A DNA stretch of 59,566 bases from a virus: positions 1-59,566 of IMG/VR virus record IMGVR_UViG_3300035034_003009; one strand, 5' to 3'. This document shows positions 13,524 to 44,309 of the stretch, piece by piece. The position numbers and the translations under genes are program-made. Below the pieces are notes generated by a model. That model saw nothing but the letters and a program-made list of their open reading frames with translations, had not been told where the DNA came from and did no database searches. Positions within the stretch are counted from its first letter, which is position 1, and the number at the start of each line of letters is the position of its first letter.

Positions 13524-15330
13524 TCAGGTAGTAGGATATCAAAAAGCAAAAGATATGGACACATTAAACCTAGAGATTGAAAATATCTTGATGCTTGGAG
13601 ATTCACACGGCAATAAACATTTCGTGCTCGAAGCTATAGATGCAGCTGTACGCTATAAGTGCCAGGTAATAATGCAGGTGGGAGACTTTGGCATCTGGGA
13701 TCACACTAAGGCTGGTGTAATCTTCCTTGATGACGTAGATGATGCCCTAGAAGATGCTGGCATCCCCTTAGTGTTTTGCGACGGAAATCATGAGTGTATA
13801 ACTAAACGTAGTCGAGCCGTTACGAAACGTGGTTTCATCGACGTGGAGAACCTCACAGGGGACGACGAAGTCCTGTCAGTTGACAACGCTGGTGCCCGTT
13901 GCTGGCTTCCCATACAGAAAATCATCTTGCAACCCCATCAAGGCACGTTGTACCGGTTCAGAAGCCGAGGAATCGACTTCGACGCAACGCCAGGTCACCG
14001 GATCGTTGGTCGTCGCAAGTCCAATGTCGGGAACTGGTGCGAAACGCTGGCAGAGAACGCCGATCAAGTCCACTACGACCTCGTAGTGTCCGCTCGGAAC
14101 GACGACCCCGATGCGAACATCAGCGACGACGAGATAAAGCTCATCGCTTGGTGTCTCACGGACAGTTACAAACGCACGAACGGTGGATGGCACTTCTATC
14201 AGCGGGAGTCAACGAGCTATCGCATCGAAGAACTCCTTACGCGGCTCGGAATCGCGTACACATCCTCCAGCCGCCATCGTAACATCAAAGTGATCACCGG
14301 GAATCCAGTCACCTCGACAGAACCCGAGACCACCATCCGCGTAGGTATGTCAGTTGGTCAAGAACGAACCAAGCACGATCACCACAACCTACCCGCCAGT
14401 GCACTGTCCTGGTCTCGCAGGCAGGTCGAGGTATTCCTCAACGAAATAGTGTTCACTGACGGGTCGAACGCGACATCAGGGACCGCTAAGGTTATCTATT
14501 GCTCACACAAGTTATTGCGAGAACAACTGATGCTCCTGTTCGTGGCAAACGGCTTCCGAACATCCACGACCGAATATCGCCCAGGACACTGGCGCATCAA
14601 TGTCGCTGATCGCACCACGCTCGACTTCGACACCAGGAGGGGGAAGGGCGTCATCAGGACAGAAGATGAGTCAGATGAAGACGTTTGGTGCCTCCAGGTC
14701 CCAAATGGTCGGTTCTTCATAGAAACCGACGGGAAAATGGTCCTCACTGGAAACTGTTTCGATTCACTCCTCAAACTACCAGTAAGCATCGATGGTTTCC
14801 GTCGTGTGCGCAAGAACATCCTCCATGCGCCACGAGGACACATCTGGAGCTGGTCTGACGTCACTTTCATGGCAATGGGTGGGGCACACTCCATCGACGG
14901 CCCTCGTGGCGTCTGGCAGCAAATGAGAGGCCCTCTACCTGTACGCCATGTGATGGATGCCCCGGTAGATCTTGGTTCATGGTGGCCACAAGAAACCATA
15001 ACTGCCACACAAACTGTGGAAGCTAGCGAAAAAGCACGCCAGCACCGTGAAAACACAGGAGAAATAGATGTGCTCATTGCGCACGACTGTCCTCTCGGTG
15101 TAAACATCCCCGGAATTAGTGGCTACCCAGCCGGAGATCAGAACCGACGATTGTTGGCGCAAGTGTGTGATGCAGCAAATCCTAAGTATATTTTCTGCGG
15201 ACACTTCCACAGAAGGTTACGAGGCAGCTACGGCGATGCTCGTGTCGAAATACTCGCAGCTGATATCAATGATAGAGATCAAGCTCTTGCCATCTCGGTT
15301 GATCAGTTAAAACAATGGCCCTCAGATTAA
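13516..15330 (+). CDS. Metallophosphoesterase interrupted by an intein (604 aa precursor)
   Basis: Exteins form a calcineurin-like phosphoesterase: GDSHGN, VGDFGIWDH and CDGNHE before the intein, then AMGGAHSIDG, IAHDCPLG and FCGHFHRR after it. The intein is inserted directly after the GNHE metal-binding motif, so the enzyme should be inactive until splicing. The spliced product is about 284 residues. Start is uncertain: ATG 13516 has no strong ribosome site; GTG 13468 is also in frame but overlaps the small basic gene more. The C-extein just after the intein is unusually GC-rich. Confidence 0.88.
   Translation: MDDQVVGYQKAKDMDTLNLEIENILMLGDSHGNKHFVLEAIDAAVRYKCQVIMQVGDFGIWDHTKAGVIFLDDVDDALEDAGIPLVFCDGNHECITKRSRAVTKRGFIDVENLTGDDEVLSVDNAGARCWLPIQKIILQPHQGTLYRFRSRGIDFDATPGHRIVGRRKSNVGNWCETLAENADQVHYDLVVSARNDDPDANISDDEIKLIAWCLTDSYKRTNGGWHFYQRESTSYRIEELLTRLGIAYTSSSRHRNIKVITGNPVTSTEPETTIRVGMSVGQERTKHDHHNLPASALSWSRRQVEVFLNEIVFTDGSNATSGTAKVIYCSHKLLREQLMLLFVANGFRTSTTEYRPGHWRINVADRTTLDFDTRRGKGVIRTEDESDEDVWCLQVPNGRFFIETDGKMVLTGNCFDSLLKLPVSIDGFRRVRKNILHAPRGHIWSWSDVTFMAMGGAHSIDGPRGVWQQMRGPLPVRHVMDAPVDLGSWWPQETITATQTVEASEKARQHRENTGEIDVLIAHDCPLGVNIPGISGYPAGDQNRRLLAQVCDAANPKYIFCGHFHRRLRGSYGDARVEILAADINDRDQALAISVDQLKQWPSD
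13795..14754 (+). mobile_element. Intein in metallophosphoesterase (320 aa)
   Basis: Starts Cys (CITKRSRAVTKRGFIDVENL) and has block-A/B-like LTGDDEVLSV and ATPGHRIVG; ends FFIETDGKMVLTGN before a Cys extein residue. The penultimate residue is Gly instead of His. Internal stretches IAWCLTDSYKRTNG and FLNEIVFTDGSNA resemble degenerate LAGLIDADG endonuclease motifs. GC is about 60 % in lines I counted, against about 43 % around it, implying recent arrival from a GC-rich source. Confidence 0.88.
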
Positions 15331-15344
15331 CTATAGGAGTTGAT

Positions 15345-15831: not shown

Positions 15832-15951
15832 CCAAAACTAATCTTTACTATCCCTATTTAAAGCAAGTCTTTTTTTTATCTTCTTCTTGATGAGTAGTGG
15901 ATCCGTCCATATCAATAATACAATAACAATAAAATAGAATGCACCAAATTA

Positions 15952-17331: not shown

Positions 17332-17349
17332 GATAGTAACAACCTTTAA

Positions 17350-18520: not shown

Positions 18521-18527
18521 AATCTAA

Positions 18528-21730: not shown

Positions 21731-22348
21731 TTATCTAGTCAATGCTTGATACAGAGTAGTTGCAAACTGCTCTCTTGTTAGTAAGTCTTGTGGTCCGAAG
21801 GAACCATCCTCATACCCCTGCATAATTCCCTCGTCATACATCCATTGGACAGCTTCTTTATGCGGGTCGGAGATTTCATCATCATCTGTGAACGAAGTAA
21901 CTATACCCATAACTTCTGAACCAGTGTCTGTAAATATCTGTGTGACCCACAGAATGCCATTACCATCCCGAACAACGCCAATCCCAATATACTCACGTGA
22001 TGGATAAACTATATTAACAAGATGGTCTGGTGAAGCAACCAGTGCAGTATTGATTGAGTCTACAGACGGTCCAGTACCAACATTTTCCCCCCACGCCTGA
22101 TAGTCCTCCATACCCGCATATTGATCCGGTCTATGGTAAAGCCTATCCTCGCTTGCCATTGCTTCGCTGTGCTCCCTCGCAAGCCCTTCGATATATGGGT
22201 CAATAACCAAACTATTAAGTCCTGCTGAAATGCGCTGCTCGTTAATGAGATCTAAAAACTGATTCTCGTAGTCCGAAGTTACTTCGACAACAAAAATAGA
22301 AGAAACTAATAATGGAATCATTATTATAGCAAAAGCAATCTTTCTCAT
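21731..22348 (-). CDS. Secreted CAP-domain protein with SLH domain (205 aa)
   Basis: A signal peptide (MRKIAFAIIMIPLLVSSIFV) precedes a CAP/SCP domain: FLDLINEQRISAGLN, GLAREHSEAMASEDRL, AWGENVG, and YIGIGVVRDGNGILWVTQIF. Residues about 155-205 form one S-layer homology module (DPHKEAVQWMYDEGIMQGYE, GSFGPQDLLTREQFATTLYQ). It should be exported and attach to the cell surface. A phage-made surface protein could block adsorption of other phages or alter the wall; that is inference. RBS AGGGGAAAAG. Confidence 0.87.
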   Translation of the reverse strand: MRKIAFAIIMIPLLVSSIFVVEVTSDYENQFLDLINEQRISAGLNSLVIDPYIEGLAREHSEAMASEDRLYHRPDQYAGMEDYQAWGENVGTGPSVDSINTALVASPDHLVNIVYPSREYIGIGVVRDGNGILWVTQIFTDTGSEVMGIVTSFTDDDEISDPHKEAVQWMYDEGIMQGYEDGSFGPQDLLTREQFATTLYQALTR

Positions 22349-22434: not shown

Positions 22435-24225
22435 TCATCGTTTTCTTCTCATTCTCGCTACTCCCGTCTTACAGACGGGGTTATCTGGTTTAGCAAAATC
22501 ACAGAAAGTACATTGTCTTCTATCCTGGGTGGGACTAAAATTACGATTCCCTAAGATAGTACTAACCTTTTCCAAAACAGACTGATATGTTTCTTCCATA
22601 TTTTCAGGTGTAAAAAGATGTCCTTTTCTACGACCTGAACGCAAGTAGTACAGCTCCGCATATATCGGTGCATCAGGAAACATAAGGGAAGCCACCAAAG
22701 CATAAATTCCTATCTGCAAATTCGTTGGGGCAGCCTTTGCTGAAACCTCCCATTTTCCACTATTATGGGTAATGATGTAGTCATTCGTTACGTAAAGGCC
22801 ATCGTCGTTGCTGACCCTGATGCACTGCATTTGCAGGTCCGGGATTCTTTCGATGCCGCAAATGCGACGTAAATCATCTCGCTTTCGTTCCCTAAACTGG
22901 GCTAATTTCCTCGCCAGGTAGAAGGGGTTTTCCTTCATGCGAGTGTTCACGATGAACTTATCTCGACATAGAACCTTCTCTCCATCCTTCTCGTAATATG
23001 ATTCATGCTGAGACCACATAGGAAGACCGCCGAGGGACCTAATTAGCTCCACAATTCCGTCCCGAAGCTGATGTGACGTAGTCACAAAAGCTGTTCGAGT
23101 CGAGGTGCCACCGTCAGTATCCATGAGACCCTGCAGTAGTGCATACCGGTCATCAATTGATGCGCGCAGATATGATTCAGGAATAAACTTCTCCCAAGAA
23201 CGACACCCCATAAGCTCCATATCGTCAAGCGCTTGCTTGTACTCGTTCCTGCGACGACGGGAGGAAATGCGGTACACCTTAGGCTCATCCCACACTAGGC
23301 GTAGGTCCTCTGGCAAACTGCGATTAACGCGTTCCAGGATTTCACCGTCTTCTGCATGAATCTTTATCCTCCCGGAAGTGGTACCACCGTCACCCAAGAT
23401 TACTCCGAACACGTAAGGATCGATCGGGAGGGGTTCCTGCTTGTCGAACTCAACCGGTGCAACAGTTGGGATGGAAAACTTATAGTTAGAACGAACTCGC
23501 AGTCCTCGCTCTAAAATGTCAGTCGTTGTCAGCACCTCAGGATCTTTACCTAGGTCCTTTACTTGCCAGAGATGGCTATCCGAACAAACAGTAGAAGTAC
23601 CATCTGTAAATGAAACCCTGTAGGAAGGGACAACCCCTTGTGGATAAACACCAACAACGGAAACTCGTGAACCATTACCTCCTATAACCTCATCCCCTAC
23701 GTTGATATCTCCCATCTCCGTCCACCCCGTAGGTGTAAGAATTGGGGTATTCAAAGGTTGAGCTTTATAATCAACCACATGGATTGTCCCATCTGGCTCT
23801 CTTGTAACTAGGTCTATGTAGCCACGTACCAGAGCTGATCCAATTACGAGAGAAAATTCTTTTTCTTTACCGATTACATCAAATTTTTCATCTTCATGTC
23901 TATCTACAAACTCTCCTATCATCTGTCGGCCAGCAGATAATAAACCCTCATCTATAAGCATATCAGGGTCGTATATCTTTCGGTGATGCTCCATCCGCTC
24001 TAGCATGTGGTCGTATTTCAGGGGATCGCCCACAGTGTCCTCTAGCACACCGTGGATGACATTACCCAACGACGCGGGGGCACCAAATACCCTATCTTCC
24101 TTCTGTATGTATGTAAAATAATACTTACTAGGACACATATCGTATGTATTTAGCCGAGAGTATGACATGTTAATAAGGGCTAGTTTCTCTAGCTCGTCTA
24201 GATCATCTAGAGTTCGCAGTTTCAA
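22435..24225 (-). CDS. Cas4/RecB-like nuclease interrupted by an intein (596 aa precursor)
   Basis: Exteins form a PD-(D/E)XK nuclease of the Cas4/AddB type: first Cys in MSYSRLNTYDMCPSKYY, LGNVIHGVLED, GYIDLV, catalytic VVDYKA, QIGIYALV and a C-terminal CTFCDF...NPVC, so four cysteines may hold a [4Fe-4S] cluster. The intein splits the protein right after the catalytic DYK. Spliced length is 263 aa. It probably resects DNA ends during recombination or replication. TTG start with GGAAGGAAAG upstream, overlapping the small gene before it. Confidence 0.87.
   Translation of the reverse strand: MKLRTLDDLDELEKLALINMSYSRLNTYDMCPSKYYFTYIQKEDRVFGAPASLGNVIHGVLEDTVGDPLKYDHMLERMEHHRKIYDPDMLIDEGLLSAGRQMIGEFVDRHEDEKFDVIGKEKEFSLVIGSALVRGYIDLVTREPDGTIHVVDYKAQPLNTPILTPTGWTEMGDINVGDEVIGGNGSRVSVVGVYPQGVVPSYRVSFTDGTSTVCSDSHLWQVKDLGKDPEVLTTTDILERGLRVRSNYKFSIPTVAPVEFDKQEPLPIDPYVFGVILGDGGTTSGRIKIHAEDGEILERVNRSLPEDLRLVWDEPKVYRISSRRRRNEYKQALDDMELMGCRSWEKFIPESYLRASIDDRYALLQGLMDTDGGTSTRTAFVTTSHQLRDGIVELIRSLGGLPMWSQHESYYEKDGEKVLCRDKFIVNTRMKENPFYLARKLAQFRERKRDDLRRICGIERIPDLQMQCIRVSNDDGLYVTNDYIITHNSGKWEVSAKAAPTNLQIGIYALVASLMFPDAPIYAELYYLRSGRRKGHLFTPENMEETYQSVLEKVSTILGNRNFSPTQDRRQCTFCDFAKPDNPVCKTGVARMRRKR
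22762..23760 (-). mobile_element. Intein with Gln1 in Cas4-like nuclease (333 aa)
   Basis: Starts QPLNTPILTPTGWTEMGDIN, so residue 1 is Gln, not Cys/Ser. Block B has VCSDSHLWQVKD. LAGLIDADG motifs are FGVILGDGG and LLQGLMDTDG, both complete, so the endonuclease is probably active. It ends QCIRVSNDDGLYV and YIITHN, then Ser. Trp after the block-B His, Cys in block F and Thr in THN match the WCT triad of class 3 inteins. Confidence 0.88.
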
Positions 24226-24827: not shown

Positions 24828-25236
24828 TGTTCCCTCCCCTTGCTCTATTGACGGAATCCTTAGTCGATGTACCATCATTAAAAGTGATTGGATCCCAGTT
24901 TGGATCATCAAATCTTTCGCGCTGTTCATCTACATACTGATTCCATTCTTTCTCATCCTGAGACTCAGCATCGGTTATCACCTTGCCCGCAAATGGATCA
25001 GAATGGAAATGACGCATTATAATGTGCCCATTCTTAAGACGGTACTGTAGTATTCCTTCACTACAACGACACTTATCATCAATATGATAAGGATCGCGCT
25101 GTCCTTCTGGGTCATATCTACCACTGCAACGATTGCATTTTGCATATTGTCCTTTGTTCTCACACCGAAAACAAGATGTACATGCACTCCAGCACGGAAG
25201 AGTGCTTGGATTTTCCCAATGAATTCCACTAAACAT
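24814..25236 (-). CDS. Cysteine-rich zinc protein (140 aa)
   Basis: ATG (25236) overlaps the DnaE C-terminal gene. The first 50 residues contain WSACTSCFRCENKG, CNRCSGRYDP and CRC, consistent with two zinc sites. The C-terminus is acidic and charged. This pattern of C..C..C....C..C is known to me from actinobacteriophages without function. Confidence 0.65.
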   Translation of the reverse strand: MFSGIHWENPSTLPCWSACTSCFRCENKGQYAKCNRCSGRYDPEGQRDPYHIDDKCRCSEGILQYRLKNGHIIMRHFHSDPFAGKVITDAESQDEKEWNQYVDEQRERFDDPNWDPITFNDGTSTKDSVNRARGGNNGFA

Positions 25237-28147
25237 GTGTAGCTATCCTTCCTATTGTTTGTAACTCTTCTTTAACTTTTCGATTGACGGGTCTCTTAAA
25301 CCGCAGTGAGATCTTAATATCATTCTCTGTGAGGTAGTAAATATACACCGGACAGTCTCCTGGATGCTTATGTATTAACTCCTTCATTCGTTCAATAGTA
25401 TCATAGTCAGGCTGTTCTGGAAACTCAATGATGATTGGATTCCCGGAACCAAACTGGGGAACCTCGGGCTTAGACATGCTAGAGAAGAATATTTTACTGA
25501 TAATGTGTTCATCATCTCCCTCCTGAGAAACACGTCCAGAGATTATTACGATATCTCCTTCCTCAAATTTGTTATCTCCGGCATTGCGCGGGAAAACTAA
25601 AACTTCCACGTTTCTAGTCATATCTTCTAAGGTCAGAAGAAACATCTTCTCTCCTCGACGCGTGATTTTAGGAGTTACTTTGGTCAGTATGCCACCTATA
25701 ACCACGTTCTCTCCATCAGACAAATCCTCCAACCCATCAATAGAACAGGTCACACTTGAACTGATATTGTGCCACACTCCAGCCAATGGGTGTTCGGTTA
25801 TATAGAGACCAAGCTCATCTCTCTCAGCGTCGAGCATCTCCATCTTCTGGTCTCTGTTCAAAACCTTATCTTCCTGCTTAGAAACCAGCTCATCAAACGC
25901 GCCTGAACTTAATAGGTGTTCTAAGGTTCCCTTGTTCAGAACCTCTTTACTGCATCTGCGCATAAAGTCATAAACACTTTGATATTTCTCTTCTGTCCGT
26001 GACTCCATAATTGCATGCACAACTGCAGGGCCTATTCCAGCTATTGAAGAAAGACCAAAAAGAATTGTGTCACTTGACTCTACTTTGAACTCAGAGAGTG
26101 AACGATTTATAGACGGTGGTAGCACATTAATGTCCATGTTTCTACATTCGTTAAGGTATGGACTAGCCTTCTCCTTGTTGTCGACAGAAGTCAGCAAAGC
26201 AGCCATATACTCTGCTGGGTAGTTAAACTTTAGATAGGCGGTGCAGTAACTGACCATGGCATAAGATGCAGCATGGGCTAGGTTGAAGGAGTAACCTCCA
26301 TGGTACTCAATGTCCGAGTAAACCTGGTTTGCTTCAGCTGATGAGAGGATGCCGACCTCGGCCGCGCCCGCCACGAAGCGTTCACGCATCTTCACAATCT
26401 TGTCTTGCAGCTTTTTCCCGACCGCTTTGCGTAGATCGTCTGCTTCGCCGGGAGTGAATCCGGCCAGTTCCCGACTAACCTTCAATACGTCTTCCTGATA
26501 GAGAAGGATCCCGCGACTCGAAGACAGCAACTCATCGAGCGCGGCGATGCCCTTCGCTTCACGCCCATGCCGACGCGCGATATACATCCTATCCATACCT
26601 GAGCCCAATGGCCCCGGACGGTACAGCGAAATGAGCGCCATAATATCTTCAATGGAATTGGGCTGCAGGGCAACCATCATTTGCCGCATGCCCCCACTGT
26701 TGTGTACAACAAATGAATTGGCAACATAATTGTGGTGCGGAGCATTCATCATGAGATCGTATGTGTCTTTATCCCCAAGATATTCTTTGTACTCAATCGG
26801 TACAAATTTAAAACCACTGGGGATTTTTGGGCATTCCCAATCTACGAGATTTTTATATTCAAAAGCAATCTCCGCCATATCCTCCTTACAGAAAACAGCC
26901 TTGTGTTTCTTCCCACCTTTTTTAGACACAAGAACAGAATCTCCCTCATTAATATCACCCATTTCCTTCCAACCATCTGGAGTCATGAACCTATGTTTCA
27001 AGGTACCTTTTATCATGCGACCATCTGCCACAAGCCCATAAACAGGCTTAATACCTGATTTGACCACCTTGATGATCCGGTTGTGAGTTACTTTTCCATC
27101 AGAGAAGGATAGAGACCTTGTTTTCTGGTCAAAGTCCCCTGATTCCTGCATGCTATAAAGCTCTTTAAGTGAGTAAGTACCCACTCGCGTGTCACCAGTG
27201 AGACACTCTAACTGGAACACCCCGAGCGAATAACCTTCGCACAGCTTCCGGTATGTAAGCTCATCGTCAAGAGGAATTGATTCAATATCTAGAGTAATAC
27301 CTTGACGCTCTTTGATGTTCTCAACACACACATTGATAACCCCTAGATTACGAAGTCCTAAGAAGTCGACCTTCAACTGGCCGCATTGTTCGACACGATG
27401 CATATCCCATTGAGTGACAATTGGACCAGGCTTATTCTTCTTAGGGCGTTGCATAACTGGAATAAAATTAGTTATGTCATCTTTAGCGATAACCACACCA
27501 GCAGCGTGAACACCACTTTGTCTTACCACTCCTTCGAGACCCCTTGCACCGTCAATTATTTCTTTGGTTGCAGCATCAGACTCATATGCTTTCCGCATGT
27601 CAGGCGTAGCTATAGACTGTGTTAGAGTCTTTGCTACTCCAAGTTTCGGCGGAGGCACCATCTTTGCGACATCATTACCCACACTATACTCATGGCCCAG
27701 CACACGAGCAGCATCTCTCACTGCTTGACGAGCGCCCACACGAGAAAACGTGCCAATATGAGCAACCTTCTCGTCACCGTACTTGCTACGCGCATAATCA
27801 ATTACTTCTTCGCGACGTGTGTCATCAAAATCCAGATCGATATCCGGTGGTGACTTCCTGCCTTCAAACTCTAAACCTATAGGTGGAGTAGTTGGTTCAG
27901 CATCTGTCACTCCAATCAGATAAGCTATTGAAGAAGCATTAGGGTTGTTATACTTAATCCCGGTACGTAGAAGATCCAAATACCTATCGGCCATCTCAAG
28001 ATACTGGACTGCTCGAAACTCATCTACTATCCATGCATTCGAAAGTACAGTTCTCTCCGATTGCTCGGTTAAACTCTTCAGTTCGGAAATCGAGTCCACT
28101 CTTTGACCCTTTCTTAATGTTACAACGCAAACACAACGGCTGCACAT
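25229..28147 (-). CDS. dnaE: DNA polymerase III alpha, C-terminal part, with intein (972 aa precursor)
   Basis: Carries the catalytic palm: SPPDIDLDFDDTRREEVIDY (two metal Asp) and KVDFLGLRNLG (third Asp), then fingers (YRPGPLGSGM, GYSFNLAHAASYAMVSY), a helix-hairpin-helix (GIAGIGPAVV) and an OB fold (GGILTKVTPKITRRG). A mini-intein sits in VFQLE|SGGM. Residues 1-96 are not DnaE-like and overlap an HNH remnant; the N-terminal half is in the next gene upstream. Stop of that gene and ATG here are 3 nt apart, so the halves are translationally coupled and must assemble or be joined at RNA level. Confidence 0.9.
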   Translation of the reverse strand: MCSRCVCVVTLRKGQRVDSISELKSLTEQSERTVLSNAWIVDEFRAVQYLEMADRYLDLLRTGIKYNNPNASSIAYLIGVTDAEPTTPPIGLEFEGRKSPPDIDLDFDDTRREEVIDYARSKYGDEKVAHIGTFSRVGARQAVRDAARVLGHEYSVGNDVAKMVPPPKLGVAKTLTQSIATPDMRKAYESDAATKEIIDGARGLEGVVRQSGVHAAGVVIAKDDITNFIPVMQRPKKNKPGPIVTQWDMHRVEQCGQLKVDFLGLRNLGVINVCVENIKERQGITLDIESIPLDDELTYRKLCEGYSLGVFQLECLTGDTRVGTYSLKELYSMQESGDFDQKTRSLSFSDGKVTHNRIIKVVKSGIKPVYGLVADGRMIKGTLKHRFMTPDGWKEMGDINEGDSVLVSKKGGKKHKAVFCKEDMAEIAFEYKNLVDWECPKIPSGFKFVPIEYKEYLGDKDTYDLMMNAPHHNYVANSFVVHNSGGMRQMMVALQPNSIEDIMALISLYRPGPLGSGMDRMYIARRHGREAKGIAALDELLSSSRGILLYQEDVLKVSRELAGFTPGEADDLRKAVGKKLQDKIVKMRERFVAGAAEVGILSSAEANQVYSDIEYHGGYSFNLAHAASYAMVSYCTAYLKFNYPAEYMAALLTSVDNKEKASPYLNECRNMDINVLPPSINRSLSEFKVESSDTILFGLSSIAGIGPAVVHAIMESRTEEKYQSVYDFMRRCSKEVLNKGTLEHLLSSGAFDELVSKQEDKVLNRDQKMEMLDAERDELGLYITEHPLAGVWHNISSSVTCSIDGLEDLSDGENVVIGGILTKVTPKITRRGEKMFLLTLEDMTRNVEVLVFPRNAGDNKFEEGDIVIISGRVSQEGDDEHIISKIFFSSMSKPEVPQFGSGNPIIIEFPEQPDYDTIERMKELIHKHPGDCPVYIYYLTENDIKISLRFKRPVNRKVKEELQTIGRIATHV
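26699..27205 (-). mobile_element. Mini-intein in DnaE (169 aa)
   Basis: Begins CLTGDTRVGTYSLKELYSMQ with a nucleophilic Cys, has GTLKHRFMTPDGWKEMGDIN (block B) and ends DKDTYDLMM and NSFVVHN, followed by Ser. No LAGLIDADG motifs fit in 169 aa, so it lost or never had an endonuclease. The C-extein next to it (26341-26640) is about 60 % GC, higher than the rest of the gene. Confidence 0.9.
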
Positions 28148-28199
28148 TCTCTATAACATTCCAACCACCGTGCTTATAGGAGAAAATTGAGGATCCCAC
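28020..28199 (-). pseudogene. HNH endonuclease C-terminal remnant at the DnaE break
   Basis: A third frame across the junction reads SYKHGGWNVIENVQPLCLRC then NIKKGSKSGLDFR, the typical C-terminal half of an HNH enzyme (KGG...IENVQPLC..CN.KKG.K..DFR). The 5' half with the catalytic His is missing and a stop lies just upstream. It overlaps the start of the DnaE C-terminal gene and the end of the N-terminal gene in other frames. Confidence 0.65.
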
Positions 28200-29425
28200 T
28201 TATAGGTGGGCGGAACTAAGAACCGCTCAAAAAGAAGACCAAACTTCAACGGATCTAGGTTTGTGATACGTAGGGCGTAAGACAAAATAGAGCCAGCTGC
28301 ACTCCCTCTCCCCCACCCGGTTCTGACTCCGTTATCCCGTGCCCATCGAGTTAAGTCCGACACAACAAGGAAGTATCCCTGGAAGCCGCTTTCTTTAACT
28401 ACGCGTAATTCATAATTGACTCTGTCGACAACCTCTTGACTTAATGAGTCTCCATACCTCTCCTTGATTCCTTCCCATACCTTCTCTTCCAAGAAATCAT
28501 CTACTGTTCTATCTTCTGGGATGGGGAAATCAGGGAAATGGAACTCATTGAAAGACAGATCTATGTCAACCATGTCAGCTATTTGTAATGTATTGTCTAG
28601 CCATTCCGGTTCAAATCGCTTAACCATCTCATCGTATGGTTTAAGATAGAACTCTTCTGGACGAAACTTAAACCGTTTTTCTTCATCTACTCTTGAGTTT
28701 GTAGCGACACAAAGAGTTACATCGTGATAATGAGAGTCCTCTTTATTGACGTAATGACAGTCAGCTGTAGGGACAACGGGTGCTCCTATCTTCTTTGCTA
28801 TCTCAACAAGCTGAGGAAGTACAAACTTCTCTTCCTCAATGCCATGATCCATAACCTCAATGAAATAGTTCTCTTTGCCAACAATATCTTGCATGGTGGC
28901 TGCATGCTTGAGAGCAACGTCGAAATTATCTGCCATCAAAGCCTGTGCAACCTCACTACTTAAACATCCGCTCAGAATGATGAGACCATCTGCATGATCA
29001 GCAAGAAGATTATGGTCAATACGAGGCTTTACGTAGAACCCTTCAAGGAAGGCAAGCGAGGACAACTTAATTAAGTTGTGGTACCCCTTCATGTTCTTGG
29101 CTAGAATGCTTAGGTGGTAGGGCCCACGCTGAGCTAGCTCATCATTAGCCGGACCAGCACGCTCCTCATCATCTCTGTCGAAGCGAGTCTTGCGTGCCTG
29201 GTATGCCTCACAGCCAAGAATTGGCTTTACTCCACACTCTTGTCCTGCTTCATAGAAATCTAACCAGCCATGGATGTTGCCATGGTCTGTGATTGCCAAA
29301 GCTGACATATCAAGTTCAGCAGCACGTTGCATGTAAGCATCAATCTGCCCATGACCATCAAGCATACTAAAAGCTGTATGGTTATGTAGATTTATCCAAT
29401 TCTTAGTCACGAAACGCCTTTCCAC
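28151..29425 (-). CDS. dnaE: DNA polymerase III alpha, N-terminal part (424 aa)
   Basis: PHP domain with INLHNHTAFSMLDGHG, LAITDHGNIHG and HYVNKEDSHYH, then the start of the polymerase core (GVRTGWGRGSAAGSILSYAL, LLFERFLVP). The protein stops 17 residues after the point where other DnaE proteins continue with RxxPDIDLDF, which is in the next gene. GTG at 29410 is an alternative start, since it follows GGAAAGGCG. It overlaps the thymidine kinase remnant. Without the downstream part it has no polymerase Asp residues. Confidence 0.9.
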   Translation of the reverse strand: MERRFVTKNWINLHNHTAFSMLDGHGQIDAYMQRAAELDMSALAITDHGNIHGWLDFYEAGQECGVKPILGCEAYQARKTRFDRDDEERAGPANDELAQRGPYHLSILAKNMKGYHNLIKLSSLAFLEGFYVKPRIDHNLLADHADGLIILSGCLSSEVAQALMADNFDVALKHAATMQDIVGKENYFIEVMDHGIEEEKFVLPQLVEIAKKIGAPVVPTADCHYVNKEDSHYHDVTLCVATNSRVDEEKRFKFRPEEFYLKPYDEMVKRFEPEWLDNTLQIADMVDIDLSFNEFHFPDFPIPEDRTVDDFLEEKVWEGIKERYGDSLSQEVVDRVNYELRVVKESGFQGYFLVVSDLTRWARDNGVRTGWGRGSAAGSILSYALRITNLDPLKFGLLFERFLVPPTYKWDPQFSPISTVVGML

Positions 29426-32275: not shown

Positions 32276-33081
32276 TTTACTACCTCTGGCCATGCGTCGA
32301 ACTCTGCACAAGGAGCATCAAACGGACAAGCCTTACAATATGCCGTAAAACCGCGACGCGGAACAAAAATATCTGTATCCGCAACCTGTTGTACCCAATA
32401 CAACAAAGCATTCATATCAGCTTTTGTAGGTTGCTCTACATCCAGATAACCGCCTTTAGCTGAAGATAGATCATAACATTCATAACGAACATTATTTTTA
32501 AATGAATCATTTCTATACTCAAAAGCTAATCGCATCGCCGCTAAGTCTAACGTTAACGAATCAACTCCGGGGCGTTGTTTGTTTATCCATTTGATGACAC
32601 GATAATTATCATCTTCACGTAAAACCAGATCAATTGATCCTTCGATTCTTAAATTGTCTCTCACTGAGACCACATATGATTCATCTATTAGAAGTGCATC
32701 ACCAACGTCTTCAGCAAACTCTTCGTAAAATCGCTCTAATGATGCAGCTGCAATATTACTGTAAGATGCCATGTTACCATGAGAAACTTCATGTTGCTCA
32801 ACCGCCATATCATATGCTGTCATGTTTTTAGGAAACCAAAGTTTTTCCCAACGGTTGAGTATAGCAATATATGATGGCACAATATCAGCCTGCTTTTTAT
32901 AAAAGAAAAAAGAAGCCACTTTCTTTAAAGTGTTTCCAAATTTATTGGTCATTATTTCGCGACTGTAAATTGGTATGTTTCTATTCTCTAGATATTTGTA
33001 TTTATAATATAATTCACAAACCTGGAAATCTCTTATAGATTCTACATTCAATGTGAGGATATCTGTTTCAGTGGCAGGCAT
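32272..33081 (-). CDS. Cas4/RecB-like nuclease-fold protein, perhaps inactive (269 aa)
   Basis: Overall layout is Cas4-like: an early Cys in FQVCELYYKYKYL, IEGSIDLVLREDDNYRVIKW, and a terminal YCKACPFDAPCAEF giving four cysteines for an Fe-S cluster. At the site where active members have (D)xK, here there is RVIKWINKQ; the Asp-x-Lys pattern (as DYK in the other Cas4-like protein at 22435) is not obvious. It may be a structural partner or have a shifted active site. It directly follows the helicase gene (stop and start share 33081). Confidence 0.66.
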   Translation of the reverse strand: MPATETDILTLNVESIRDFQVCELYYKYKYLENRNIPIYSREIMTNKFGNTLKKVASFFFYKKQADIVPSYIAILNRWEKLWFPKNMTAYDMAVEQHEVSHGNMASYSNIAAASLERFYEEFAEDVGDALLIDESYVVSVRDNLRIEGSIDLVLREDDNYRVIKWINKQRPGVDSLTLDLAAMRLAFEYRNDSFKNNVRYECYDLSSAKGGYLDVEQPTKADMNALLYWVQQVADTDIFVPRRGFTAYCKACPFDAPCAEFDAWPEVVK

Positions 33082-35345
33082 CAGTATGGCTCTCCTATAT
33101 CTTCTACCGTCAAATCTGATTGGTACATCGATAGAGGTGGTAGCTCTAATTCTTGATATGACTTAGACTCATCATGATATTTCACCAAAGGTGGGTCCAT
33201 CATAAAAGCAATACCCGTTATGCGGTTTTTGGGTATCTGTAATTGCATCACACTATCGTCTATTGAGTCGTCACCGTTTTCCGTCTTAGCGTCGGTAATA
33301 AAGATTGTCACCGAACTTTTCTGAGCAATAGACAATGAACCACCAATATCAGACTGTTGAACTACTTCCCGCTTTTCTTTCATACGATTTGAATTCTCTT
33401 GTGCAGTTATAATTACAGCAGCATCTAAATCTTTAGCCAGCTTTTCTAATCTAACCATCATCTCTTCATACTGACCCCAACGAGGAAGACTTTTGCCACC
33501 ACCTTTTAAAAACATGGATTGGATAGTATCAATTATCACAACATCCGGTGCTCCATTGCGGCTTGCTACATCACGGACCCATATCTCCATATCTTCATAA
33601 TATGAAGTCTCTGGATCGTGTTTCACCAGGAAACGACCATTCCATTCACGCATTTTCTTCTTGAAGATTTCAGTGTAGTGTTTTCTGTCCACTTCAGATA
33701 ATTCTTTACCTTTATAGATATTCTGTTCCGTTATCTGTGTAAAAAGAATTCGTTCCCAGTGTGTTTTCGCCTCTTCGTAGTTGATATACAGAACAGTTCT
33801 GCCCTCATCAACCCAATGGTTCATAAGGTTCTTAGCCATCGTCGAGTTATGAACTACAAAATCTCTCACTAGGAAGGTGTGATCATCCTCCACCGTAAGG
33901 CAGCGACACAACGCATCCCCATCTGATGCGACTGAAACGATAGTGTCATAAATGCACTCTCTAGTATCGGGTGCATTAGGCGCCCAATCATCCATAATAT
34001 CACGCTTGACACCTACAAAATCAATTCGTCTATTGAAGTTCGCCACATCCTCAATAGCGCCAATGCGTAAACGCCAGGACCAGTGAACCTCACCTTTGTA
34101 TCGACCCTTCTTCGGGGAGATGCGGGAATGGATTCCAAGTCTCACCAAAAGTGATTGAGTACCCTCAAGAAGTTTTTTAGAGACTGAATAAAACTCAAGT
34201 ACTGGAGTAGATTGGAAACCACGACCATATCCACGCCTTGTCGTGTTAGAAATGGTTCCATCACTCATGAAATATCGGCCCAAAAAGGCAGAAATTTGCT
34301 CGTCATCTCCTTGGAACACCCAATCAGGAACTTTCTTGTGGTGAGCGGTACCAATATCACCCACAGAGAAACCAGCAAGCCTGAACTGGTCTATGGACCT
34401 ATCTGAACTGGATTCAGTAGTGATATTCGCAGGGATGACCAATAGATCCTCATTTGTTAGGTCTTCAGCGTTTTTCCACCCAGAATCCGTGAGAAATGGA
34501 TGGTCAAGAGCGGCAACTATCTTTCGCCCCGAACGGGATATGATACGCACCGTTGGAAGAACACCCTGTTCATGTACCTGAGTTACTAGGTCGGGTTTGC
34601 CCTTGCTGTTGATCACTCGTTCACCAACAATGATGTCACCTAAACGCTTATAATTTCCGCCGGCCATAAGAACCGGAGTATCAACGTGCAAAGGCTTTCC
34701 CTTTCCTGAAGCTGCCAATATTGCATGCACCGCCCCCTTCATGAAGCCACCCTCATCACTGTATGACATTGCCCTGTTCAGTGATTTAAATGGTGTCGGT
34801 AGAAAGTTAGGCAACTCCCACAAACTCTCTGCGGTGTCCGCTATCCTCTCCCCGTCGAAAACAGACTTAAGAGGATCGACACCCGTCTGATTAAGCTGCC
34901 TAACCTCATCCGTTAAAGCGTTAACCCGCTCCACATAATCATCTGTGTGATCAATATTCTGAACAGTCTCATTTAATTCTTGAACTGTCAGAACCTGCTT
35001 TGCCTTATTGTATCGATAACGCAACAAAGAAGAAACAGCCTCAGGGGTGGAGGGCTCAACCTCATCCAGAGACCTCAGATAGAGGTTGACGCTTTCTTCA
35101 CCCCCGAGAGCATCGTATAATTCTGTTTCATTACTCAACCACGACTTGAATGCAACCCTGTCTACCGGGTCGCATCCTGTCTTGCTGTAGAAGTCAAGTA
35201 GTGTCTGATAGAACTCTGAATGACCTTTGCCACCCTCCTTTAACACCTCAACGGGGAGGTGTTCTAAGAAGTAATCAATTGCTCCTTCCTTGTGCATCGA
35301 AAGTGCAAAAACTTGGTACTCAAGATCATTCTCTGCCACCATCAC
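33081..35345 (-). CDS. DnaB-like replicative helicase interrupted by an intein (754 aa precursor)
   Basis: N-terminal helical domain, then a RecA core: ILAASGKGK|STMAKNLMNHWV is Walker A, VVIIDTIQSMFLKGG Walker B, and AAVIITAQENSNRMKEKREV with SDIGGSLSIAQKSS match later DnaB/RecA motifs. The intein splits the P-loop between GKGK and ST, so ATPase activity needs splicing. Spliced length is 471 aa, typical of phage DnaB proteins. It should unwind the fork for the phage DnaE. In an operon with the second Cas4-like gene. Confidence 0.9.
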   Translation of the reverse strand: MMVAENDLEYQVFALSMHKEGAIDYFLEHLPVEVLKEGGKGHSEFYQTLLDFYSKTGCDPVDRVAFKSWLSNETELYDALGGEESVNLYLRSLDEVEPSTPEAVSSLLRYRYNKAKQVLTVQELNETVQNIDHTDDYVERVNALTDEVRQLNQTGVDPLKSVFDGERIADTAESLWELPNFLPTPFKSLNRAMSYSDEGGFMKGAVHAILAASGKGKPLHVDTPVLMAGGNYKRLGDIIVGERVINSKGKPDLVTQVHEQGVLPTVRIISRSGRKIVAALDHPFLTDSGWKNAEDLTNEDLLVIPANITTESSSDRSIDQFRLAGFSVGDIGTAHHKKVPDWVFQGDDEQISAFLGRYFMSDGTISNTTRRGYGRGFQSTPVLEFYSVSKKLLEGTQSLLVRLGIHSRISPKKGRYKGEVHWSWRLRIGAIEDVANFNRRIDFVGVKRDIMDDWAPNAPDTRECIYDTIVSVASDGDALCRCLTVEDDHTFLVRDFVVHNSTMAKNLMNHWVDEGRTVLYINYEEAKTHWERILFTQITEQNIYKGKELSEVDRKHYTEIFKKKMREWNGRFLVKHDPETSYYEDMEIWVRDVASRNGAPDVVIIDTIQSMFLKGGGKSLPRWGQYEEMMVRLEKLAKDLDAAVIITAQENSNRMKEKREVVQQSDIGGSLSIAQKSSVTIFITDAKTENGDDSIDDSVMQLQIPKNRITGIAFMMDPPLVKYHDESKSYQELELPPLSMYQSDLTVEDIGEPY
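33846..34694 (-). mobile_element. Intein with Pro1 in DnaB-like helicase (283 aa)
   Basis: Begins PLHVDTPVLMAGGNYKRLGD; residue 1 is Pro. Block B is AALDHPFLTDSGW. It ends CRCLTVEDDHTFLVRDFVVHN minus nothing further, then Ser; block F has Cys where class 1 inteins have Asp. Endonuclease motifs RLAGFSVGDIG and AFLGRYFMSDG are partly degenerate. Non-nucleophilic start plus block F Cys suggests class 3 chemistry, although Phe replaces Trp two residues after the block-B His. Confidence 0.87.
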
Positions 35346-40017: not shown

Positions 40018-40039
40018 ACTAAAACCTTTGTGAGTTAGA

Positions 40040-40070: not shown

Positions 40071-40109
40071 GTACTATTATCTACTTGTTGCACAATAGGT
40101 ACTTAACTT

Positions 40110-43100
40110 CTATTTGATTGGGCATGCGCCTTGGGCACAGTTTTCATCTATTCCATCTCCAATAAGCACCAAATGACCTCCGTTCATCAGTGTCTCATAC
40201 TCTTCCTTAGACAAGGACTCATACGGGCTCTGAGGACGAGATCCATCAACCATCAGGGTTGTCCCCTTCAATTGAGGAAGATAGTTGATTAAGGTACTCA
40301 TTGTCTTGTCTATTTCTTTTTCAGGTGGAGCTGTATTGGTGATTTCCCATGCGGGCACACCTGCATCGACCTGGAGTTGTACATGATCTAATTGCTGTTG
40401 GTGCGGCTTAACGTTCACCGTAAAACTTACGGCATTATCCGCATAATACTCCTGGTACATTGCTTGTACGGCCAACATATCCGGAAGAGAGATATCAGCT
40501 GCTGCCTCGATTAGGTAGTCAGCATCAAAACCTAGTTCTGCTACTTCATTGAGTAGATTGTTCTTAGCAATAAAGGAAACAACCTTTGTATTTGGGGTGT
40601 AAATGTCATCTTCTATGTGATAACCCTCACGCTCGAACTCTTCGAGTTGAAGAATCTGCCCAGGGTCAACTGTTGAGAAACGCACACGGTTGATGTAATA
40701 CTTGAACAATGCTGGATGAATACCTTCTGTGCGGCCAGCCAGTTTCGCAATGGTTCCAGTAGGAGCAACCGTTGTTACCTTAATGGGCTCAGGGATACGC
40801 AGGTGGAACGCATAACGACGAGCCTCCTTGCGTACTGCATTATGAAAATCGCGCAATGTCTTGCGTACCAATGGATCGCGATGGCTATCGCTATAACGGA
40901 TGCCCTGCTTAACCAGCCATCCCTGGAACCCAAAGTGCCCTACACCAATTCGCCTATTTAATGAACCTATCTGCTTAGAGCGTTCATTTGGTATATCACC
41001 AAAAGTTGCACGCATAAGAAATCGAGTCATCAATCTATGGGCTTCTATAGCACCTTCGAAATCGTCGCAATAGGCATCAAGGTTAACATGGCCCAAGCAA
41101 CAATATTCCCACTCCTCAAGGGCAATTTCACCACAATTAGATACGTTTATACCACCTGTCCAGTAGGTGTGAACAGAGTTATCGACAGTAATATCAAACA
41201 CCTCTTCAGTCGAAACGTATTCAATTCCGATGACTTCATAGGAGTCCTTGCGATGACCGCGAATATGCGACAGAGTGCTTGACAAGTTCTCTCGCTTGTA
41301 GTCCTGCAAGAATGACACGAGCACACTAAATTTATCACGATCTGACGTGATATTGACATCGTATGACTCTTTGCAGACATAATCGCCATTTGCAAATGTT
41401 ACGGGCTTACTCTTGTTGGTCGTGTAGTAGGACCTGATACCGATGGAGGACAGCATGAGCTGAACTTGATCTCTCATGACGGGAGACGTCAGCTTCAGCG
41501 TTACCCGGTTATCGACAACCGACCCGTTTGCGGAATACAGCCCACGCAATACAGAAGCAACCGTCGCCTGACTAGCGTAAACATAGTGGTCAGGCAACTC
41601 GCGGTCATGAATTGGAACCATCTGTTCTGCGTTTATATCTGTCTTAACCTCGTAAGCATAGTCCTTGATTCCTGGCCGGTGATCTCCGATGAGATTTGCA
41701 ACTTCACTATCAAAGTAGTCATGATCATTACTGCCGATACACAGAAGCACCAAATTATTACTCGCCTTGTGCACCATGCCATCACCGATGACCAAACCGG
41801 CCATAACAGCATCTAGATCCCAGCCATGAGAAGCGTTGTCCGGTCCGGAAAGCGCGTCGAGACTCGTAGCATACTGCACCTCCATCTTTTCTCTATCAGA
41901 GAGAACACGATGGCTTTCCGTTCCATAGAATACGCCCGCAATCGTGCGATAACTATTAACATCCTTGATGCCATTCGACCACTTATTCGTAACAGTGGTC
42001 CACCCCGTTTCTGACCATATCTTGTCGCCGATTTCAACATCATCGAGCGTTCGCAAACCATCCGGAGTCACGATGGGGGCCCATCCCGGCTGACATGGAT
42101 TTGTAGACGCAACCTCACCAACTTCACCGACCTGTGCAAGACTACGGTTATAGAAACCAGGCTCACCATTGGTGAGCATTCCAACTATAGCTGCCTTGTA
42201 GACGTCTCTAGCATGCTCGTCGTCTCTCTTGAGAGCTTTAAAGAAATCGTCATCGATCTCAATAGAAATGTTTGTAGACCAATGCTCACCGCTATCAGCT
42301 TTGCAGTTAATGAAATCAAAGATGTCAGCATCTGCCCAATTCTTGATTGACATACGAGCTGAATTATGAACGAGAATTCCATCAACAAAGAACTCGTTAC
42401 GATCTTCTACTTCGATATCGTAGGTTTCGCCGCTGCTCCCTCCTTCTATGGTCTTGACCCTCAGGGGTAAATAATCCCATTTAACAACGAAGTGCTCTCG
42501 TACTGATTTAATCGCAGAGCGAGTACCACGAAAATGAAACACTTTGCCCGTCTGATGGGTAAAAAGATTATCGATACTATAAATTGATTTATCTTTCTCC
42601 GATGTCAGTACATGTGTCAAAACTTTCACCGTTTTATCGAATACTACCTGTGCAGCAGAAAGCTGTGAAGGCGTATTAGCCAAGTTCAAGTACCAACTCT
42701 GTCGATGGCTCTCGGAGACGGGTGCTGATCCACGCTTCAGTACGGGATAGATACCTAGCGAGAAATACATTCGTTGAACCGATCGTATAAACGATTCACA
42801 CGATGACCACAAAACAGTGCGGGTATTCTTTTCGCCATCGGTATCCCACAAACCAGCGAGGAAGGATGCTCTCTCACCTGCTGATGCACCCCAAAGATAA
42901 TGAGGAATCCGAACTTCACCAAATGGTTCTTTCAATTCAACAAAAGCATCCAGAGAATTGTCAGCAACATGCATGCGCAGTTGTCCACTATTGTCATTTT
43001 TGTACTCTTTTACCGCATAACCATTATTGCGCAGAACGTCTAACATGCGATCTTTTACTTCAGGTTCGTTTTGATTGAACGAAAAGCTCCATTCTTTTAA

Positions 43101-44309
43101 AACCTTATTCCATCTTTGACGCGTGTAAAGAGATCCATCCCCACAGTATGCACCATACATCCAGGCCTTCTTGTCTAGCCCATTATCGGTCGTATCGCCG
43201 GTAACGGTTTCTATACCTAAAAGAATGTCACCTTCCTCTATGTCTGCAGCTTGCACCCATTCGTAATCACCTTCTGCTGAAGATAGAATCGCGACTCTAT
43301 GGTTTGGAGTGCACTCCAACTCTGATCCGTTCGCAACAGTTATCTTAAGTGTATTCTGTACACCCTGTTCAAATTTTTCCACAACGGATCTGTAACCATC
43401 TGCGGTAAGTACATTGTCGCCCACTTCAACATCTTCTATCGGCTTCATCCCTTCGCTTGTGTGCACCTGCGCAGCACCTAAGAGGCATCGGCGGACGTTT
43501 CCACTGACGACACATTCACCAATCCAGTGGTCAACAAGCATGGCATCAAGGAATGATATCTTCTGACCTACGCGGTCAGTAAGTAATGCTGCTGTCTGTC
43601 GTAGCAATTTAGCCAACGGCATAGGACCTGCTGCCGTTCCACCAAACGACTTAATCTTGGCACCCTTGTGACGAACAAGACTTACATCCAACACCAATAA
43701 CTCTGTGCAATTCCAGAACGAAGTCAATAAAGTAGCAAGGGCCTCACTCCACCCTTCTCGCGAATCGTCAACACGAGTAGCACCGTCCCACTCGTAAGAA
43801 TATTCAGAGCTCAGAACACCCATGTTGAGAAGCTCGTAATAGTCAGGGTGATCGGGATCACAAACAATGTGAACGTCCACTCCATGCTTTATTGGTTCAT
43901 ACTGGTCGACATACTGAGAAGAATAGTTGGCACCAACACCGCCCCCCTGCATTAATTGATCAAACGTGAACGAGAAATGTTCGGTTATATCTTCCGCGTC
44001 CCAGCCTGCTACGTGGCAATTGAACAGGAATTGTCTACCAGGGACTCCACTCATCCAAAGATGTCTTCCGGCAGGAAGTGCTTTGAAGTTGTAGAACATA
44101 TCAATGAGCTTGTCTCTTTCATCCTTCTCGTGATATTTACTATCTACAAGTCCTAGGTTGCCATCAACAACTCGTGTTACAGTATCCAACCACTGCTCAG
44201 GTTGACCATCTTCTTTAATGCGACGATATGTACGCTCGTACACAGATTTCCCATTCGGACCCCATGTCGGTTCATTCATAAAAATTAGCCTCTCAGTTTC
44301 TTTATCCAT
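40110..44309 (-). CDS. nrdJ: Class II ribonucleotide reductase with two inteins (1399 aa precursor)
   Basis: Exteins resemble the monomeric adenosylcobalamin-dependent RTPR (Lactobacillus leichmannii type): YERTYRRIKEDGQPEQWLD, FNCHVAGW (active-site Cys), QGGGVGANYSSQY, GGTAAGPMPLAKLL, GNVRR|SARMS, STNP|CGEIALEEWEYCCL, TVAPTGTIAKLAGRTEGIHP and the terminal CAQGACPIK redox pair. Spliced length is 704 aa. It reduces ribonucleoside triphosphates using B12 and so works without oxygen or an R2 subunit. The inteins interrupt two active-site loops, so the enzyme is off until both splice. Confidence 0.94.
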   Translation of the reverse strand: MDKETERLIFMNEPTWGPNGKSVYERTYRRIKEDGQPEQWLDTVTRVVDGNLGLVDSKYHEKDERDKLIDMFYNFKALPAGRHLWMSGVPGRQFLFNCHVAGWDAEDITEHFSFTFDQLMQGGGVGANYSSQYVDQYEPIKHGVDVHIVCDPDHPDYYELLNMGVLSSEYSYEWDGATRVDDSREGWSEALATLLTSFWNCTELLVLDVSLVRHKGAKIKSFGGTAAGPMPLAKLLRQTAALLTDRVGQKISFLDAMLVDHWIGECVVSGNVRRCLLGAAQVHTSEGMKPIEDVEVGDNVLTADGYRSVVEKFEQGVQNTLKITVANGSELECTPNHRVAILSSAEGDYEWVQAADIEEGDILLGIETVTGDTTDNGLDKKAWMYGAYCGDGSLYTRQRWNKVLKEWSFSFNQNEPEVKDRMLDVLRNNGYAVKEYKNDNSGQLRMHVADNSLDAFVELKEPFGEVRIPHYLWGASAGERASFLAGLWDTDGEKNTRTVLWSSCESFIRSVQRMYFSLGIYPVLKRGSAPVSESHRQSWYLNLANTPSQLSAAQVVFDKTVKVLTHVLTSEKDKSIYSIDNLFTHQTGKVFHFRGTRSAIKSVREHFVVKWDYLPLRVKTIEGGSSGETYDIEVEDRNEFFVDGILVHNSARMSIKNWADADIFDFINCKADSGEHWSTNISIEIDDDFFKALKRDDEHARDVYKAAIVGMLTNGEPGFYNRSLAQVGEVGEVASTNPCQPGWAPIVTPDGLRTLDDVEIGDKIWSETGWTTVTNKWSNGIKDVNSYRTIAGVFYGTESHRVLSDREKMEVQYATSLDALSGPDNASHGWDLDAVMAGLVIGDGMVHKASNNLVLLCIGSNDHDYFDSEVANLIGDHRPGIKDYAYEVKTDINAEQMVPIHDRELPDHYVYASQATVASVLRGLYSANGSVVDNRVTLKLTSPVMRDQVQLMLSSIGIRSYYTTNKSKPVTFANGDYVCKESYDVNITSDRDKFSVLVSFLQDYKRENLSSTLSHIRGHRKDSYEVIGIEYVSTEEVFDITVDNSVHTYWTGGINVSNCGEIALEEWEYCCLGHVNLDAYCDDFEGAIEAHRLMTRFLMRATFGDIPNERSKQIGSLNRRIGVGHFGFQGWLVKQGIRYSDSHRDPLVRKTLRDFHNAVRKEARRYAFHLRIPEPIKVTTVAPTGTIAKLAGRTEGIHPALFKYYINRVRFSTVDPGQILQLEEFEREGYHIEDDIYTPNTKVVSFIAKNNLLNEVAELGFDADYLIEAAADISLPDMLAVQAMYQEYYADNAVSFTVNVKPHQQQLDHVQLQVDAGVPAWEITNTAPPEKEIDKTMSTLINYLPQLKGTTLMVDGSRPQSPYESLSKEEYETLMNGGHLVLIGDGIDENCAQGACPIK
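41136..42095 (-). mobile_element. Intein 2 in NrdJ (320 aa)
   Basis: Begins CQPGWAPIVTPDGLRTLDDV, with TESHRVLSD as block B; ends VFDITVDNSVHTYWTG and INVSN before extein Cys of CGEIA. The penultimate residue is Ser rather than His. Endonuclease motifs are VMAGLVIGDGM and VLRGLYSANGS; the second lost its Asp, so the endonuclease may be inactive. Confidence 0.9.
42363..43487 (-). mobile_element. Intein 1 in NrdJ (375 aa)
   Basis: Begins CLLGAAQVHTSEGMKPIEDV, block B CTPNHRVAILS, and ends TYDIEVEDRNEFFVDGILVHN-type block F/G before Ser (SARMS). LAGLIDADG motifs WMYGAYCGDGSL and FLAGLWDTDGE are intact, so the homing endonuclease is likely active. Confidence 0.92.

Follow-up and report, generated by a model that had tools for sequence, protein, structure and literature searches.

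Six inteins in the replication and nucleotide genes of a phage fragment, one of them from an apparently undescribed lineage

How did a single phage come to carry six inteins in five genes? The window analyzed here is the whole 59,566-base virus record IMGVR_UViG_3300035034_003009, in which six open, in-frame inserts interrupt the genes for a metallophosphoesterase (MPE), a Cas4-like nuclease, the polymerase DnaE, the helicase DnaB and, twice, the reductase NrdJ. We propose, with a probability of roughly 85%, that the window is part of a phage genome and that its replication and nucleotide genes took up six inteins in separate invasions. Five of them are of known types and the sixth, in DnaB, belongs to an apparently undescribed lineage; together with that lineage, it is the most interesting single element of the locus. 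The inserts are 320 (MPE), 334 (Cas4), 169 (DnaE), 283 (DnaB), 375 (NrdJ-1) and 320 (NrdJ-2) residues long and add up to 5,403 nt, or 18% of the 29.7-kb span (13795-43487) in which they lie. The initial annotation had placed six inteins in these five genes, and all are there, in frame and open, with its coordinates exact. It thus detected more inteins than a search with the Pfam intein model PF14890, which matches three of the six and misses the other half; the LAGLIDADG model PF14528 gives four matches in the window. With PF14890, TIGR01445 and PF14528, models that divergent inteins escape, no intein beyond the six was found in the window. Overlooked in the initial annotation were the class of the Cas4 intein, the unusual residues of the DnaB intein and a second break in dnaE, all of which are taken up below.

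Comparison with relatives shows that every insertion site occurs in an empty form. A search with DnaE recovered 80 viral loci that share a replication module with the window (nuclease, primase-like protein, HD protein, DnaE, Cas4 and often DnaB). L004, the closest of them, has identities of 73-79% in DnaE and 66-77% in Cas4, and the remaining loci are about 60% identical in DnaE. The DnaE site, VFQLES, is uninterrupted in 80 of 80 loci, and GKGKST is uninterrupted in all 46 relatives that hold the DnaB site. The Cas4 site reads DYK(T or S)GK in the 70 loci that span it, 33 of them without a gap within 10 residues. Both NrdJ sites, RR/S and NP/CGE (slashes mark splice junctions), are empty in Rhodococcus phage Natosaleda at 50% identity, and the MPE homologs of actinophages align as one piece over the junction. 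No sequence resembling any of the six inteins was found among the 80 loci, and PF14890 and PF14528 have zero matches in 14 related whole records (1.28 Mb), against 3 and 4 in the window. In 13 of those relatives NrdJ is a single unbroken frame of 612-706 residues; the spliced NrdJ of the window has 704. Aligned to intein-free homologs, a check that had been suggested for the junctions, the spliced exteins run through, and the boundaries first drawn in the five genes match those homologs, save that the first boundary of the Cas4 intein moves one residue upstream, to DYK/A.

The six inteins also have little to do with one another. Their mutual similarity is low, the best matches reaching about 25-34% over parts, which led us to reject the expansion of a single intein within this genome, and the nearest known relative differs from intein to intein, lying in different phages and different genes. 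The G+C content at third codon positions separates three inteins from their exteins (MPE, 0.641 vs 0.439; Cas4, 0.49 vs 0.36; NrdJ-2, 0.53 vs 0.42), and there is no such difference for the DnaE, DnaB and NrdJ-1 inteins. Low mutual identity, different nearest relatives and these compositional contrasts point to repeated homing from several sources, unlike a conserved regulatory set. We propose that the replication and nucleotide genes were hit by independent homing events from several sources at different times, that the elements spread by means of LAGLIDADG endonucleases that home to conserved positions in essential genes, and that each intein removes itself from its host protein after translation. 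The homing domain is still in five of the six. Both LAGLIDADG acidic residues can be read in the MPE, Cas4, DnaB and NrdJ-1 inteins and one is lost in NrdJ-2; profile support is confined to Cas4, DnaB, NrdJ-1 and NrdJ-2, and the DnaE intein has no endonuclease domain. These endonucleases are probably active or were so formerly. The inteins would then be selfish insertions whose splicing the phage requires for survival, with no designed switch. Two points weigh against this account. MPE was not found in the compared relatives, which share just part of the window; and because PF14890 misses half of the window's inteins, the zero count in relatives depends in addition on PF14528 and on alignments of the syntenic loci.

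Four of the six, in MPE, DnaE and twice in NrdJ, are class 1 inteins: each has Cys1, a block B His, a C-terminal Asn and Cys or Ser at +1, and each is absent from homologs. They would begin splicing with Cys1. The MPE gene (13468-15330, plus strand; extein 300 residues; Pfam Metallophos, 7e-8) has actinophage homologs and encodes a calcineurin-like phosphoesterase, and its intein (13795-14754, plus strand, 320 residues) runs from Cys1 to GN/C+1 with a penultimate Gly, at the site GNHE/C. It is 39% identical over its full 320 residues to the phosphoesterase intein of mycobacteriophage Nhonho, which with others of its kind shares gene family and GNH/C site, so that the two differ only in sequence divergence and phage background. 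A penultimate Gly, as here, and a penultimate Ser, as in NrdJ-2, are both known in phage inteins (PMC5050341). The DnaE mini-intein (26699-27205, minus strand, 169 residues) lacks an endonuclease, runs from Cys1 to VHN/Ser+1 and matches Pfam Intein_splicing at 1.7e-13; its site, VFQLE/S, is the equivalent of E671/S672 in the Pol III alpha subunit of T. aquaticus. The relatives of this intein and of NrdJ-1 are weak only and, where nameable, lie in other genes.

The NrdJ gene (40110-44309, minus strand) encodes an adenosylcobalamin-dependent ribonucleoside-triphosphate reductase (RTPR) with an extein of 704 residues (TIGR02505, 5.7e-146; PDB entry 1L1L, 1.6e-75). Intein 1 (42363-43487, minus strand, 375 residues) lies at GNVRR/S, runs from Cys1 to VHN/Ser+1, retains both LAGLIDADG acidic residues and matches Pfam Intein_splicing and LAGLIDADG_3. 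Intein 2 (41136-42095, minus strand, 320 residues) lies at NP/CGE and runs from Cys1 to VSN/Cys+1; it matches LAGLIDADG_3 at 1.4e-10, and its second motif reads SANG, with the acidic residue lost. Its +1 Cys aligns with Cys408 of the L. leichmannii RTPR (1L1L), which we take to be the thiyl-radical cysteine. Since the nucleophile at +1 is thus the Cys408-aligned residue, no reductase activity should be possible before splicing. The same NP/CGE site holds an intein in the ribonucleotide reductase of a Nodularia phage, 30% identical to NrdJ-2, and Thermus phage TSP4 is likewise interrupted at NP/C; a scan of viral contigs for relatives of NrdJ gave one weak match. As a separate observation, the NrdJ extein is 49.5% identical to reductases of Rhodococcus phages, against 32-37% to the NrdJ of phages with the same replication module as the window, and because it stands nearer to the former the gene itself may have been exchanged.

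The Cas4-like gene (22435-24225, minus strand) encodes a PD-(D/E)XK nuclease (Pfam PDDEXK_1, 4e-21), with DYKTGK found in 70 relatives. Because homologs read DYK(T or S)GK, and DYKSGK in L004, the N-extein ends at DYK and the intein (22762-23763, minus strand, 334 residues, with a LAGLIDADG endonuclease) is bounded as DYK/AQPL...THN/SGK. Class 3 inteins are defined by a Trp-Cys-Thr (WCT) triplet without a nucleophile at position 1 (PMC3196547, PMC5222942). The Cas4 intein is a canonical member: it has Ala1, His64, Trp66 (B:12), Cys314 (F:4), Thr332 (G:5) and Asn334/Ser+1. Its top matches in the PDB are the class 3 DnaB-1 inteins 6rix and 6bs8, it falls within the WCT clade with support of 100/100, and it is up to 40% identical to class 3 inteins of jumbo-phage helicases and terminases. 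Its splicing would start with the internal Cys F:4. In single-protein scans of viral contigs, no close relative of the Cas4 or the DnaB intein was found.

The DnaB intein (33846-34694, minus strand, 283 residues, with LAGLIDADG) is of a different kind. It lies in a gene for a DnaB-like replicative helicase (33081-35345, minus strand; Pfam DnaB_C, 2.6e-12) at the lysine-serine bond of the Walker A motif, GKGK/ST. Like a class 3 intein, it has no nucleophile at position 1, where it carries Pro, and it has Cys265 at F:4 and Ser at +1; the remaining residues are His65, Cys263 (F:2) and Asn283. In place of Trp B:12 and Thr G:5 it has Phe67 and Val281, substitutions common to its lineage, it falls outside the WCT clade, and its block B resembles that of class 1 inteins; we call it class-3-like and non-WCT. 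Modeled with AlphaFold2 together with five residues of flanking sequence at either end (mean predicted local distance difference test score, pLDDT, 87.7), the intein matches complete endonuclease-bearing inteins first (PI-SceI) and also class 1 and class 3 mini-inteins, and the DnaB intein is accordingly predicted to fold as a complete intein.

Where does this intein belong? Its signature recurs in no fewer than 15 further phage inteins, each time at a Walker A motif and mostly or exclusively in terminases, including those of phiCbK, Brevundimonas, Bertelyvirus and Mesorhizobium phages, and also in environmental viral contigs (L096, L097, L099, L100, L102, L104, L129, L132, L140 and L142), where the flanks of the unannotated hosts look like terminases. 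Throughout the lineage, Pro or Asp occupies position 1, Phe or Ile stands at B:12, the F:4 Cys lies in a CL-x-V context, G:5 holds Val, Ile or Ala, Ser or Thr follows at +1, and the intein is always inserted at a Walker A-like K/(S or T). Over its whole length the DnaB intein is 36% identical to terminase inteins of Caulobacter and Brevundimonas phages; the phiCbK-type intein shares with it Pro1, Phe B:12, Cys F:4, Val G:5, VVHN/ST and the Walker A site, and differs in that its host is the terminase large subunit (TerL) rather than DnaB. The phiCbK paper remarked only on the unusual Pro1 of that intein (PMC3556154). A small terminase intein in L142 (1193-1612; 134 residues, Pro1) has no endonuclease and keeps the signature residues, which suggests that splicing is maintained for its own sake. 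We note, as an observation of its own, that L142 is possibly a small working copy of the non-WCT lineage. FCV-type (Phe-Cys-Val) inteins were also sought in bacterial genomes: a first scan confirmed none, and a second turned up three distant relatives of another type, with Cys or Ser as their first residue.

In trees of the splicing domain, built from 29 short, divergent sequences with several class 1 rows on long branches, the WCT inteins form a clade that excludes the whole DnaB-intein lineage (100/100, and 100/99 with the four signature residues masked). With all residues included, the WCT inteins and the DnaB-intein lineage group together against class 1 (95/95); with the signature masked, the trees give this grouping no support but do not reject it either (p-AU 0.47). 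Nor do they reject monophyly of the lineage (p 0.21). The nearest relative of the DnaB intein is that of L096 (94/85), which sits at a PPRHGK/S motif; apparently the intein has passed from one kind of P-loop ATPase to another at the corresponding bond, from a terminase type into dnaB. Of 1,701 inteins that a published study surveyed because they have Cys F:4 but lack Cys1, 6.1% depart from Trp and 4.6% from Thr (PMC7891396), which means that sequences of this kind have already been counted; a description of them as a lineage was not found in a literature search that covered ground outside supplementary tables and subscription journals. Seven RefSeq records (NC_048668, NC_070936, NC_028999, NC_054727, NC_070998, NC_055832 and NC_048709) label intein-bearing helicases or terminases 'DarB-like antirestriction', and several GenBank copies of the same records call them helicases or terminases; the label was apparently passed on by way of the intein that they have in common.

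How would the DnaB intein splice? Despite its missing Trp and Thr, it most likely starts at Cys F:4, as does the Cas4 intein in our proposal, since every relative read retains His B:10, Cys F:4, the terminal Asn and Ser or Thr at +1 and has Pro or Asp at position 1. Class 3 inteins use Cys F:4 as their first nucleophile (PMC5222942), and one intein splices even though Met replaces its Trp B:12 (PMC7891396). That intein, the split class 3 intein AceL NrdHF, is a close parallel: like the DnaB intein it departs from the triplet at Trp, and it splices by Cys F:4, yet it is Met-Cys-Thr rather than Phe-Cys-Val, keeps Thr and belongs to another lineage. Two published results tell against our assignment. 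Trp B:12 was required in the three class 3 inteins in which it was mutated (PMC5222942), and grafting Trp-Cys-Thr onto gp41-1, a class 1 intein with a natural Phe at B:12, gave no splicing (C1A/F65W/D107C, structure 6riz; PMC7664689). The DnaB-intein lineage resembles this design minus its Phe-to-Trp change, and 6riz is among the structural matches of the AlphaFold2 model. Given the Trp requirement and the failed graft, a Phe-Cys-Val intein need not use the class 3 route.

The lineage might instead splice by direct attack of Ser+1, as in class 2, or be impaired, with Cys F:4 not acting as the first nucleophile. The missing Trp B:12 and Thr G:5, the class 1-like block B and the position outside the WCT clade in the masked trees would all fit such a reading, and we nevertheless consider it unlikely. 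Cys F:4 is present in every member read, including the Asp1 forms and the endonuclease-free form; the same position is Asp in the class 1 DnaE, NrdJ-1 and NrdJ-2 inteins of the window; and +1 is Ser or Thr in the lineage, whereas known class 2 inteins use Cys. Taking Cys F:4 as the probable nucleophile, we suggest, tentatively and at somewhat less than even odds, that the inteins with Pro or Asp at position 1 followed by Phe or Ile, Cys, and Val or Ile are a second phage-borne F:4-Cys lineage that keeps class-1-like residues at the Trp and Thr positions of class 3, either from nearest the origin of class 3 or by independent conversion from class 1, and that an intein can follow the class 3 route without the full triplet.

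Protein splicing is not all that stands between dnaE and its product. The gene is in two parts on the minus strand: part 1 (28151-29425; Pfam PHP, 3.5e-51) holds the PHP domain and the start of the palm, and part 2 (25229-28147), with the intein, runs from the palm active site to the C-terminus, with a likely GTG start at 28099 after AAAGGG. The break is caused by a 348-nt insert (27866-28213, minus strand) between FERFLV and EGRKS, where 80 of 80 relatives are uninterrupted. Its length is a multiple of three, it has one in-frame TAG, and in another frame (28101-28181) it carries a truncated HNH nuclease that covers profile positions 21-47 of 47, the C-terminal half (Pfam, 1.3e-6). The most plausible reading is that an HNH element split the gene and left the insert as its remnant, and given this break DnaE does not depend on protein splicing alone. 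A seventh intein was considered and rejected: the insert lacks a Cys1-type start, its frame offers neither block B nor a terminal Asn, and it contains one stop.

Such damage could mean that the phage or the assembly is defective, the locus decaying and the inteins relics. A dnaE divided by an insert that has a stop in frame and only part of an HNH gene is what that view would predict, but we judge it quite improbable. The six inteins and five exteins are otherwise open with their catalytic residues kept, no other broken gene was seen, and part 2 of dnaE has a fair ribosome-binding site ahead of the GTG. Moreover, split phage enzymes of such a history can be active, as are the NrdA of Aeh1 and the gene 43 polymerase of phage 25 (PMC2988022). 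There too a nuclease insert cuts an essential gene into two open frames; in those phages the nuclease gene is intact or absent, whereas in the window it is a truncated remnant in dnaE, whose two parts may together still work. Less probable still is a self-splicing intron, which would leave dnaE in need of both RNA and protein splicing. Excising exactly 348 nt does recover the FERFLV/EGRKS of relatives, and HNH genes are often carried by group I introns, but the insert has no Rfam match up to E = 5, its RNA fold is ordinary (z -0.81), and its borders have neither the U/...G/ of group I nor group II ends; we reject both intron types as candidates.

The initial annotation went on to suggest that the whole replication program depends on protein splicing, and that splicing could be a common switch set by redox or temperature. 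The first statement goes too far, as other genes of the replication module in the window are free of inteins and dnaE is also broken by a non-intein insert. Its claim that each intein sits at an active-site motif holds for MPE (GNH), Cas4 (D-x-K), DnaB (Walker A) and NrdJ-2; in DnaE and NrdJ-1 the site is a conserved motif of no demonstrated catalytic role. At catalytic or conserved motifs, the activity of the host protein would wait for splicing. A coordinated switch, in which all six inteins answer one signal (redox, metal or temperature) and hold phage replication until splicing is allowed, is highly improbable: the inteins are mutually unrelated beyond their fold, of at least three splicing types with different nearest relatives, and evidently acquired separately, and since none of the relatives examined has them, there is no sign of a conserved role in regulation. 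In favor of a switch, all six start with a cysteine nucleophile, Cys1 or Cys F:4, but this is the commonest intein type. Oxidation reversibly blocks a class 3 intein that occupies the same DnaB P-loop site in M. smegmatis, by way of a Cys48-Cys118 disulfide (PMC6195587). That DnaB-1 intein (6bs8) shares with ours the protein family, P-loop site b, the lack of Cys1, Cys F:4 and Ser+1; it is Trp-Cys-Thr without an endonuclease, whereas the window's is Phe-Cys-Val with LAGLIDADG and has no counterpart of Cys48, its cysteines being 247, 263 and 265. All Pro1 members read (L085, L086, L091, L092, L096, L097, L099, L102, L104, L129, L132, L140, L142 and the window DnaB intein) carry a second Cys two residues before the nucleophile, where the Asp1 members L094, L100 and L101 have TxC. 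This CxC (Cys263-x-Cys265) is an observation and not evidence for a switch. By analogy with M. smegmatis, a redox effect on single inteins, for example that of DnaB alone, is possible.

Six inteins in 30 kb is an unusually high density, as the initial annotation had noted. Mycobacteriophage ET08 was reported with "at least five" inteins, the most of any mycobacteriophage at that time (PMC3029335), and zeta crAss-like phages have up to 3 inteins together with 14 introns (PMC7886860). The window thus stands out among the published phages that we found, but the difference is one of degree. The intein-rich mycobacteriophages (ET08, cluster C1; PMC3029335, PMC5050341) likewise carry several unrelated inteins per phage, in essential genes and at functional motifs, some absent from close relatives and with classes 1 and 3 side by side; ET08 has its inteins in a cluster C1 genome of about 155 kb, whereas those of the window are mainly in replication and deoxynucleoside triphosphate genes, a tie that the initial annotation had drawn and that our analysis supports. 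Elsewhere in the window, twenty tRNA genes lie on the plus strand over 11.6 kb (1243-12868). By eye, 21731-22348 encodes a CAP/SCP-like secreted protein with an SLH-like tail, and 54441-59558 a 1,705-residue tail-region protein with SLH-like repeats; these proteins perhaps bind the wall of a Gram-positive or S-layered host.

Finally, the window offers a clear example from nature of inteins homing repeatedly into replication genes: six separately acquired inteins lie in 30 kb, the relatives have none, and empty sites are available at known identity. Its DnaB intein bears on how class 3 inteins arose. If this intein splices through Cys F:4, then the Trp-Cys-Thr definition of class 3 would be too narrow, and a workable intermediate would exist.

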